From Streptosporangiaceae bacterium (GTDB taxonomy: Bacteria > Actinomycetota > Actinomycetes > Streptosporangiales > Streptosporangiaceae), in NCBI GenBank assembly GCA_019245115.1, contig JAFARZ010000283.1:1-64000 (forward strand): a DNA stretch of 64,000 bases, given 5' to 3'. The translations under genes and the position numbers were made by a program. Of this stretch, positions 21,989 through 53,822 are shown piece after piece (the stretch's first letter is position 1; each line of letters opens with the position of its first letter). The notes beneath the pieces are model-generated. The model did no database searches and had not been told where the DNA came from. It was given only the letters and a program-made list of their open reading frames with translations.

Positions 21989-22477
21989 ATGCGAATCTCG
22001 GCGGCCGCGCGACGTCTCGGCACATCCCCCAGAATGCTTCGTTACCGCGAAGAGCTGGGCCTGCTTCCTGAGGTACGAGACCGGTACCCCGGGGCGCGTT
22101 CGGCCGCGTCGCCGGGGCATTCGGCAGCATCGCCGGGGCGTTCGGCCGCGTCGGGAGGGCGTTCGGCCGCGTCGGGAGGGCGTTCGGCGGCGTCGGGAGA
22201 GCGTTCGGGGGCGTCGGGGGGGCCGCACGGACCGGCGCATCGCCAGTTCAGCGAGGCGGACATCGCCGCGGTGGCCGCCGCGCTCGAGCTGGAGAAGCGC
22301 TACGACATCAGCCCAGCGGCCCTGGCCTTCGGCCTGCGCGTGCTGGCCGAGCCATCGGTACGCGCGGCGGTCGCCGACCTCGCCCGCCGGCTCGGTCGAA
22401 TACCCCCCACCCCCAGCCGCGCCCTCGACTTCGAAAAAGAACGCGCCCTCCGCCTCCTCCAACACCCCCACCGCTGA
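21989..22477 (+). CDS. MerR family transcriptional regulator with a 7-aa tandem-repeat linker
   Basis: MRISAAARRLGTSPRMLRYREELGLLPEV HTH, then GGRSAAS repeats. Confidence 0.85.
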   Translation: MRISAAARRLGTSPRMLRYREELGLLPEVRDRYPGARSAASPGHSAASPGRSAASGGRSAASGGRSAASGERSGASGGPHGPAHRQFSEADIAAVAAALELEKRYDISPAALAFGLRVLAEPSVRAAVADLARRLGRIPPTPSRALDFEKERALRLLQHPHR

Positions 22478-22515: not shown

Positions 22516-22720
22516 CGCTGGGCCGGATGTCGCTGGGCCGGATGTCGCTGGGCCGGACAAATCCTCCACGCAGCGCGATGAATGGCGCCATCCTCACGCC
22601 GCCCTCGACCTCCCCGTCCTCGCGCCCCCTCCTTCCGTCCCCGCCCGCCCCTTCCGTCCCCGCCTTACGTCGCGCCCCCTCCTTCCGTCCCCGCGTACCC
22701 TCGTTCCGTCCCCGCCCGCC
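22516..22720. repeat. Low-complexity intergenic repeats: gctgggccggatgtc x3, then ccttccgtccccgc-type units
   Basis: cgcgccccctccttccgtccccgc is perfect at 22621-22644 and 22671-22694. Confidence 0.85.
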
Positions 22721-22770
22721 CCGACATTTCGGCATTCGTCCGGTTTTGCTCGCGCGGTGGTCAGTCATCT

Positions 22771-22848
22771 ATGGAAGATAGGAGCCCTCTGGAAGAAAGG
22801 GCGCCGGAAACCGGTGCCCTTTCTTCCGCAGAGCGCTTTTATTCCGCG
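22771..22848 (+). repeat. Dispersed stem-loop element, copy 1
   Basis: About 69/78 identical by hand alignment to the reverse complement of 53503-53580; hairpin GGAAGAAAGGGC...GCCCTTTCTTCC followed by GCTTTTATT. Confidence 0.85.
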
Positions 22849-23088
22849 TCGTTGCGCTCCACCGTTGTCCACGTAACGGTCATATCCTGGCAAAAACCGG
22901 CGGCCATTCACTATGGGACGCCCACTTTTCGGAGGGTAAGTGTTCGCAGCCGTAAGTGTGGTCGGGCGTCACTGAGCTGGCCATATCCCATATCCGGAAA
23001 TGTCGGGCGTGGACCCTTGCGGCGGAGAGCTGCTGATCCTATATGGCGGATCACACTGAGCCGATGCGGGAAATCGGGTCGCAGGCGG

Positions 23089-24342
23089 TCATGTCTCGGA
23101 CTGGCGGGGGATGTGTCGGGGTTCGGCGGTTCTGGAGGCTGACGGAGAATTGGACGGCGACGGAGAATCGGAGGGCGACGAGGACTTGGACGGCGAGGGG
23201 GAATTGGAGGATGACGAGGACCTGGACGGCGACTTGGACGGCGAGGGGGACTTGGGGGGTGACGAGGACTTGGGGGGTGACGGGGAATTTGGCGGGGCGG
23301 GGGGTTTCGGGGGGGAGGGGGAGTCGAGGACGCGGGCGGGGCGGATGTGACGGCCGCGGAGGACGGCGCGGATCGAGGGATCGGTCTGGTCGGATCGCGC
23401 CGGGCGGTAGATGTCCGGCTCAAGGTAGATCGTGTCGGCGATCGGGACCACGGTCCGCACCCGGCGCTCGGCGGCGTCGATACCCGATGCGATCTGGGTG
23501 GCCACGTCGTCCGACCGGACCGCGATCTTCGCGGCGACCAGGATTGAATCCGGGCCGATGTGCACGGTCCGCAGGTGGATGACGCGCTCGACCTCCGGAC
23601 CGTCCTCGATGGCGGTCACGATCGCGCGCTCAACCTCCGCGCTCGCCGCCTCGCCGATGAGGAGGCTCTTCGTCTCCACGGCCAGAATGGCCGCCGCGCA
23701 GGCCAGCAGCACGCCGATAGCCAGGGACCCGGCTCCGTCCCATACTCCGCTGCGAGTCAGCCAGGCCAGCGACACGCCCACGAACGCGAACCCCAGCCCG
23801 AGCAGGGCAGCCATGTCCTCCAGCAGCACCACCGGTAGTTCCGGGGCCTTGGCCCGCCGGATGAACGTCCCCCAACCCCGCCCCGCGCGGACCTGGTTCG
23901 CCTCCTTGATCCCGGTACGCAACGAGAACGTTTCGAGCACCGCGGCGATCCCGAGAACGGCCAGCGCCACCCCGGCGTCGTGGACCTCTCCCGGATTCAG
24001 CATCTTGTGGACGCCGTCGTACATGGAGAACGCCGCACCGACGGTGAACAACATCACCGACACCACGAACCCGTAAAAGTACCGCTCCCGGCCGTATCCG
24101 AACGGATGCTCCTCGGAGCGCGGGCGATCGGCACGGCCGCGACCGATGAGCAGCAGTACTTCGTTGCCGGTGTCGGCGAGCGAATGCACGGATTCCGCCA
24201 ACATCGACGCGGACCCGGTCAGCGCGAAAGCGCCGAATTTCACCGCCGCGATGCCGAGGTTGGCGAGCAGCGCGGCCAGCACCGCCCGCATACCCTGGAC
24301 CGCTTTCATCCCAAGTACCGTACCAGTGAGGACGTCACTCAA
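23089..24342 (-). CDS. Cation diffusion facilitator family transporter with low-complexity Ser/Pro/Lys tail
   Basis: GSASMLAESVHSLADTGNEVLLLIG...HPFGYGRERYFYGFV; tail SPSPPKSSSPPKSPSPSKSPS. Confidence 0.92.
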   Translation of the reverse strand: MSDVLTGTVLGMKAVQGMRAVLAALLANLGIAAVKFGAFALTGSASMLAESVHSLADTGNEVLLLIGRGRADRPRSEEHPFGYGRERYFYGFVVSVMLFTVGAAFSMYDGVHKMLNPGEVHDAGVALAVLGIAAVLETFSLRTGIKEANQVRAGRGWGTFIRRAKAPELPVVLLEDMAALLGLGFAFVGVSLAWLTRSGVWDGAGSLAIGVLLACAAAILAVETKSLLIGEAASAEVERAIVTAIEDGPEVERVIHLRTVHIGPDSILVAAKIAVRSDDVATQIASGIDAAERRVRTVVPIADTIYLEPDIYRPARSDQTDPSIRAVLRGRHIRPARVLDSPSPPKPPAPPNSPSPPKSSSPPKSPSPSKSPSRSSSSSNSPSPSKSSSPSDSPSPSNSPSASRTAEPRHIPRQSET

Positions 24343-34243: not shown

Positions 34244-34499
34244 AGCGTGTCCTCCCTCCCCCACTCGGAGCCCCCGATCGTTTCCTTCTCCCCCGGATGG
34301 CGAGAATCACACCAATGAAATTACACCCGCGTGTCTTGCTTCACGTCAAGCGAGGAAGGTGATAATGGTCCCCCGGATGCCCGAGATGCGAGAAAAGTCA
34401 CCCCAAGATTCCTGCTGGACCTGTTGCGGACGTCCGGCTCCCCCTCGCCAGCGGGCCGCCTCGCGTACGGAGGCCGCGGCCGGAGGCCCAGCCGAAGGC

Positions 34500-34708
34500 G
34501 AGCGGAAGCGAGCGCCGCGGCGGTTGCCGTCCCGCAGGGGCGGCAATTCCCGCCGCGGCCCCAAGCCGGCCGAGCACAGCGAGGCCTAGGCGCGGAGGAA
34601 AACACAGCGAGCGGAAGCGAGCGCCGCGGCGGTTGCCGTCCCGCAGGGGCGGCAATTCCCGCCGCGGCCCCAAACCGGCCGAGCACAGCGAGGCCTTGGC
34701 GCGGAGGA
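34500..34708. repeat. 109-bp-period tandem duplication carrying a strong hairpin
   Basis: 34500-34599 and 34609-34708 nearly identical; hairpin GCCGCGGCGGTTGCCGTCCCGCAGGGGCGGCAATTCCCGCCGCGGC in each. Confidence 0.93.
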
Positions 34709-36996: not shown

Positions 36997-37048
36997 AACA
37001 TCGTGGATCATATGGTCCGGAAACCCGGACTCTTTGATCCACGATGTT
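36997..37048. repeat. Palindromic element A, 14-bp arms with inner GTCCGG/CCGGAC stem
   Basis: AACATCGTGGATCATATGGTCCGGAAACCCGGACTCTTTGATCCACGATGTT. Confidence 0.92.
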
Positions 37049-38076: not shown

Positions 38077-38126
38077 TGATCGTGGATCGTAGGGTCCGGA
38101 TTTCCGGACTAAATGATCCACGATCA
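38077..38126. repeat. Palindromic element B, related to element A
   Basis: TGATCGTGGATCGTAGGGTCCGGATTTCCGGACTAAATGATCCACGATCA. Confidence 0.92.
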
Positions 38127-52865: not shown

Positions 52866-53290
52866 GCCCCGGTACCGGGGCAGAGCGTGCGGGACCGCTC
52901 TGCCCCGGTACCGCGGATGTCGCCCGGGCCCGGTAGATCCCAGCACCGAGGCAGGCTGCCTGGAACTTGATTGCGCCGGTACCGCTTTGCGCCGGTACCG
53001 CGGCAGGACGTCGGGTACCGCTAAACCCGGCACCGAGGCAAGCTGCCTGGAACGCATTGCCCGGTACTGGGGCAGAGCGCTCGGGAACCGCTAAACCCTG
53101 GCACCGAGGCAAGCTGCTGGAACCGCATTGCACCGGTACTGGGCAGGACGCCGGGTACCGCTAGACCCCGCACCGAGGCAGGCTGCTGGAACCGCATTGC
53201 GCCGCTACTGGGGCAGGCTGCCGGGTACCGCTGTACCCCGCACCGAGGCAAGCTGCCTGGTACCGCTTGCCTGATATTGGGGCAGCAGCC
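52866..53290. repeat. Tandem repeat array, period about 70 bp
   Basis: gcaccgaggca anchors at 52943, 53030, 53101, 53170, 53240 (spacings 87, 71, 69, 70). Confidence 0.93.
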
Positions 53291-53502
53291 CAAGACGATT
53301 TTGCCTCAGTGCGAGGTAGGCCGCCGGAACCGGTGGCCCGTGGGCAGGCTCCCATATTGGGATATTTAAGCATTGGTCGGCACGCTTCGCGTTTGGGCGG
53401 AGAGGGGATCGGAATTGTCGTGGGCGTTTACCCGATACGCGTTGTGGACGGCTGCGGTTTGCTGGCATATGGCCGTTATGTGGGCGGTGGCGTGGTGGGC
53501 TA

Positions 53503-53580
53503 CGCGGAAGGAAAGGGCCCTGCGGAAGAAAGGGTACCGGTTTCCGGCGCCTTTTCTTCCAGAGGGCTTTTAACTTCCAT
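53503..53580 (-). repeat. Dispersed stem-loop element, copy 2 (inverted relative to copy 1)
   Basis: Reverse complement aligns to 22771-22848; followed on + by GGGCTTTTAA. Confidence 0.85.
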
Positions 53581-53822
53581 GAGGTGCTGGGGCATGTGAC
53601 CGTTATGTGGTGATACACGTACTGTAGTTGGCCGGGGGCGGTGCGGGCGCTTCAGTGATGGCGATACGGCGAAATGTCGGGAATGTGCGCTATTCGGGGA
53701 TGTTTCCGTTGGGGGATAAGGTCCGTGATGTTTCGCGGGCTGGTAAACCGGGGGTGGGGGGCACGCGTCACATTGGTGGGAACTCTGGGGAGGGGTTGAG
53801 GGACTTGGAACGTGTTCGGATC

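Follow-up and report, generated by a model that had tools for sequence, protein, structure and literature searches.

The 64,000-nt stretch of DNA analyzed here (the window; G000:C401:1-64000), which comes from a fragmented 9.51-Mb Streptosporangiaceae draft genome (444 contigs, 90.6% complete, 6.2% contamination), holds two hairpin-forming sequences in inverted orientation, and the question that they raise is whether they are a solitary pair or members of a larger family and, if the latter, what kind of sequence such a family would represent; the initial annotation had offered a repetitive palindromic element, a MITE remnant, a bidirectional terminator or a structured RNA family. A repeat search of the window bore out the inverted match itself (22771-22849 versus 53502-53580; 79 nt, 89% complementary), which is the longest inverted repeat of the window, and within-genome BLAST extended the pair to ~115 nt at 80% (E 5.9e-23), so the weaker similarity claimed to continue distally is real as well. 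Folding into hairpins was likewise recovered for both copies on both strands (z-scores of -5.6 to -6.5, with 0 shuffles being equally stable), and the CTTTTA said to follow the hairpin is indeed present, but it is not a free U-tract, as CTTTTATTCC is the 3' arm of the outer stem and pairs with GGAAGATAGGAGCC. Copy 1 lies between an S-adenosylhomocysteine hydrolase gene and a cation-efflux protein gene, and copy 2 is found upstream of a pyridine-nucleotide-disulphide oxidoreductase gene (Table 1).

Table 1. Positions of the two repeat copies and of their recognizable parts within the window.
Feature	Position	Strand	Remark
Copy 1, 73-nt hairpin (outer and inner stem)	22773..22845	+	nhmmer E 1.4e-24 over 22771-22852
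Copy 1, inner stem GGAAGAAAGGGCGCCGG-AAA-CCGGTGCCCTTTCTTCC	22791..22827	+	
Copy 1, right flanking motif CACGTAACGGTCATATCC, conserved family-wide	22870..22887	+	
Copy 1, left terminal motif CCCCGACATTTC	22719..22730	+	1 mismatch to GCCCGACATTTC
Copy 1, right terminal motif GAAATGTCGGGC, exact	22997..23008	+	
Copy 2, 73-nt hairpin, inverted relative to copy 1	53506..53578	-	nhmmer E 9.7e-23 over 53500-53580
Copy 2, inner stem GGAAGAAAAGGCGCCGG-AAA-CCGGTACCCTTTCTTCC	53524..53560	-	
Copy 2, left direct-repeat motif CACATAACGGTCACATGCC	53591..53609	-	read directly; family consensus
Copy 2, right direct-repeat motif CACATAACGGCCATATGCC	53464..53482	-	read directly; family consensus
Copy 2, degenerate left inverted end GGAAACATCCCCGAATAGCG (family consensus GTGARCRTTCCGGAATAACG)	53688..53707	-	9 mismatches over 30-nt consensus

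Other repeats are also seen in the window. Tandem low-complexity short-period repeats occur near both copies (22070-22240, 22590-22722, 23123-23325 and 52888-53285), and GC-rich simple repeats of a similar kind are found beside many family copies elsewhere. A 102-nt tandem repeat (34498-34708, 98%) has 28 BLAST matches in a 1.18-Mb sample of the contigs and is probably another dispersed repeat family, while a 46-nt sequence with internal dyads is present in two inverted copies ~1 kb apart around one stretch (37000-37045 and 38079-38124, 87%), with no further copies in the same sample.

A whole-genome search for more copies places both copy 1 and copy 2 in a genome-wide family, the 28-nt core giving, at no more than 3 mismatches, 313 genome matches (158 and 155 by strand) versus 0 for the reversed control. 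Within the 1.18-Mb sample, 49 core matches correspond to 45 distinct copies, and a profile search placed 50 copies relative to genes; the copy number is estimated at ~330 when scaled from core matches and ~400 when scaled by density, both figures being subject to a possible depletion of copies in long contigs, as the assembly breaks at repeats, and the repeat accounts for some of the assembly breaks of this genome. Screening 345 genomes of the bacterial family returned only the source genome (313) and one other, the Streptosporangiaceae MAG G002, with a single match, and a scan for exact matches across 85,462 species genomes, from which the source genome's own records were possibly excluded, returned the G002 record alone. 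That copy, however, lies within a 3.45-kb contig-end segment (G002:C79:1-3449; L199) which is 99.1% identical to contig C332 of the source genome, with the similarity ending abruptly after the first 3,449 bp, and which probably reflects contig chimerism or a recent sharing of DNA. Because of this identity it is not independent evidence, and it was rejected as a sign of conservation; no credible independent copy was found among the 344 other family genomes. The initial annotation would have been undermined by a lack of both further genomic copies and conservation in relatives; the former proved to be many, and independent examples of the latter were none. So far as these searches reach, the family appears confined to one actinobacterial lineage. 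A viral, phage or plasmid origin was also considered and dismissed, as no match was found in viral contigs, phages or plasmids.

The anatomy of the repeat is that of a defined module, with shared homology reaching from about -160 to +137 nt around the hairpin center. Its constant part, in some measure because the hairpin itself was the search query, is a 73-nt hairpin enclosing a 37-nt inner stem, with the central order GGAAGATAGGAGCC-CTCT-GGAAGAAAAGGCGCCGG-AAA-CCGGCGCCCTTTCTTCC-GCGA-GGCTCTTTTCTTCC. Direct repeats of the CATARCGG type (CATARCGGKCAYAT) flank the hairpin on both sides, and outside them lie inverted ends, GTGARCRTTCC/GGAAYGYTCAC, ~295 bp apart, the left one (GTGARCRTTCCGGAATAACG) ~160 nt and the right one (GGAAYGYTCAC) ~137 nt from the hairpin center; these left and right modules occur almost exclusively beside a hairpin. 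The arms outside the inverted ends, as read by eye, are mutually complementary and subfamily-specific, and further out an outward-facing motif, GAAATGTCGGGC, has 24 matches in the sample, 20 of which are no more than 500 bp from a hairpin copy, as against 0-3 matches of scrambled words; copy 1 carries this motif at both ends. Contigs C105 and C107 have 173 nt in common and diverge directly after GGAACGTTCAC. Truncation is frequent and often one-sided, which, together with subfamilies having different outer arms, blurs the exact ends of the repeat, and near-identical copies, read as young, are present too. No consistent target-site duplication of the repeat itself was found beside either set of ends, nor was an autonomous element, i.e., one with a transposase between the same ends, in the 1.18 Mb sampled. 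By several copies (flanks of L014, L020, L022, L028 and L086) an AT-richer motif, GGAACATCCATGCTG...CGGAAATAAA...GTACGAATAC, recurs, which may be a separate repeat family.

With gene positions taken from a simple in-house gene caller, 47 of the 50 sampled copies are intergenic, occupying 15 convergent, 24 tandem and 8 divergent regions, an excess of convergent (Fisher p 0.005) and a shortage of divergent regions (p 0.04), and the regions with a copy have a median length of 827 bp versus 83 bp overall. An excess in convergent regions, along with a GC-rich stem that has an A-rich left and a T-rich right shoulder, is what speaks for a bidirectional intrinsic terminator dispersed at gene ends; yet the median distance to the neighboring 3' gene end is 271 bp, there are the eight copies in divergent regions, the conserved module extends over ~300 bp and well past the hairpin, and terminator-like sites number 0 in copy 1 and 2 in copy 2 against 0.8 +/- 1.0 in shuffles, so that copy 2 shows no clear excess either. 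What is seen is not a GC-rich stem followed by a T-tract near stop codons, and the terminator suggested initially, fitting this poorly, is very unlikely. One clear in-frame case exists among the 50 sampled copies: the hairpin at C104:37695-37776 lies within a glutamine-dependent NAD+ synthetase gene (nadE; L162:16597-18654), both enzyme domains of whose product match the 590-residue solved homologue 3n05, and it makes up about residues 293-320 of an interdomain stretch of 111 residues, versus 25 in 3n05. Another overlap with a gene (contig C173) involves a C-terminal extension of low complexity and possibly results from erroneous gene calling.

Whether the family is constrained as RNA or as DNA can be judged from its substitutions. 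Were it a structured RNA family (a small RNA or a riboswitch-like leader), the stable predicted fold (z about -6) and the finding that each of nine double changes, spread over three inner-stem pairs, is Watson-Crick would be in keeping with it, but inner-stem pairing is no better than in shuffled sequences, 87 of 500 of which match or surpass it, and outer-stem pairing is worse, being reached by 498 of 500, so there is no covariation above shuffles. There is also no Rfam match, and no orientation bias relative to genes, tandem regions having 10 copies on the same strand and 14 on the opposite one, and the remark of the initial annotation that differences keep pairing as G-U wobbles does not generalize, as inner-stem positions show 85.9% standard pairing versus 85.7% for shuffled sequences (98 copies). 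An RNA family accordingly fits poorly and seems extremely unlikely. Constraint is nevertheless seen: among 46 sampled copies, with a mean pairwise identity of 80% and a mean divergence from consensus of 13.4%, 16 of the 73 columns are invariant versus 0.1 expected under uniform divergence, and the invariant positions of the inner stem make up exactly six complementary pairs (19-21, 28, 29 and 34 with 55-53, 46, 45 and 40), which a two-fold symmetric sequence read as DNA would seem to suit better than an RNA structure.

Such a symmetric constraint, taken with the avoidance of divergent and the preference for convergent regions, might also indicate a host-functional DNA site (bound by nucleoid proteins, gyrase or a regulator, a role that has been proposed for BIMEs), the dyad of which would be maintained in every copy through selection and whose copy number reflects a role and not selfish spread. 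Against that, the repeat is absent from the other genomes of the family, spread is suggested by its truncated copies and its young, near-identical ones, and an equal pattern of invariant columns would be expected from constraint on active source copies alone, the profile search being, moreover, biased towards conserved copies, so that we regard a host site as rather unlikely.

The hairpin also serves as a landing site for other insertion elements. Diverged hairpins, whole or half, directly adjoin two sequences that each occur in seven 100% identical instances, almost all of them at the end of a contig. One of the two is part of an IS701-family element, whose transposase on contig C161 (L179; 2-1234, minus strand) passes the family cut-off (NF049999, 237.3 bits versus 170; PF13546, E 9.7e-27). 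All 12 of its recovered ends (seven for one side, five for the other; junctions from L174-L180 and L188-L192) fall at the inner-stem base of a hairpin, whichever the arm, and their flanks start with YGGARG or its complement CYTCCR, one reading TGGAGA, which suggests an apparent 6-bp duplication, YGGARG, at these insertions, the paired ends being unlinked in the assembly. For the second element, ending in GGTCCCTCAGTG, all seven ends adjoin the base of the outer stem; its body was not recovered, with no plasmid match and no counterpart among the other DDE_5 genes. As the hairpins differ widely beside identical IS ends, they predate the insertions, and a single transposon made up of the hairpin and the adjoining IS was rejected on the same grounds; nor are the fixed positions a matter of chance, since hairpins cover, by our own estimate, ~0.3% of the genome. 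By homology with other copies, the inner-stem base of copy 1 would be an IS701-family target point as well.

The repeat is dispersed in hundreds of copies, has inverted ends and truncated derivatives, favors intergenic positions and is targeted by two elements; we consider it likely to be a lineage-specific, non-autonomous foldback repeat of ~300 bp, longer where the outer arms have been retained, whose lifestyle would resemble that of MITEs and of REP/ERIC-type repeats. The repetitive palindromic element first proposed is hereby confirmed, and the MITE remnant, given the inverted ends, the outward motif, the hundreds of mainly intergenic copies and the young near-identical ones, is the best mechanistic guess, the missing target-site duplication and autonomous partner in the sample being, like the blurred ends and the fragmented draft state of the genome, points against a mobile repeat. 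Copies would have spread as DNA, in trans, through a putative transposase or recombinase reading the inverted ends, the dyad-symmetric hairpin or both, with the six invariant stem pairs being either contacted by a protein or needed for the spread; the IS701-family transposase would, in turn, recognize the hairpin base and insert with the apparent duplication described above, and transcriptional effects are taken as secondary. A bolder option, which we find improbable, is a new mechanistic class, spreading with neither a Y1 transposase nor target duplication through an enzyme that recognizes the hairpin, with its dyad symmetry, as DNA, while the IS701-family transposase would read the same hairpin base by structure and not by sequence alone. 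A heavily amplified palindromic repeat is now documented for which a limited literature search found no description in this actinobacterial family, and two different insertion elements land at fixed points of its one hairpin.

Several known systems invite comparison. ERIC, Correia and RUP are, like the present repeat, short, non-coding foldback repeats with inverted ends, an internal palindrome and truncated derivatives. MITEs and foldback repeats in general (reviewed in PMC10969869) share with the present family shortness, lack of coding capacity, terminal inverted repeats (degenerate in many copies here) and many dispersed, intergenic copies, whereas the present family differs in having no fixed-length target-site duplication and no autonomous relative found in the sample, and in its subfamilies with distinct, self-complementary outer arms. 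In Rickettsia palindromic elements, a palindromic repeat can be found in frame within a housekeeping gene (PMC10969869), as is the one copy in the nadE linker here, although the present family is mainly intergenic and the bacteria are unrelated. REP/BIME and REPIN sequences (PMC1525189, PMC3116915, PMC8266576) are, like this repeat, high-copy, extragenic, palindromic and lineage-specific, and in both cases IS elements insert at set positions of the palindrome, while the repeat here is a longer module with inverted ends. Mobilization of the RAYT/REP type (TnpA-REP) was rejected, as no Y1 (HUH) transposase (PF01797) was matched in the draft genome (90.6% complete), with the controls being positive. 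IS701 is related to the IS4 group, and its targeting of the hairpin therefore extends a known principle. Palindromic-repeat targeting has been reported for IS3, IS110, IS4, IS256 and IS5 elements (PMC1525189), with IS701 not named among these five families, and the repeat family described here provides many natural replicates for how an IS701-family DDE transposase picks a palindromic target.
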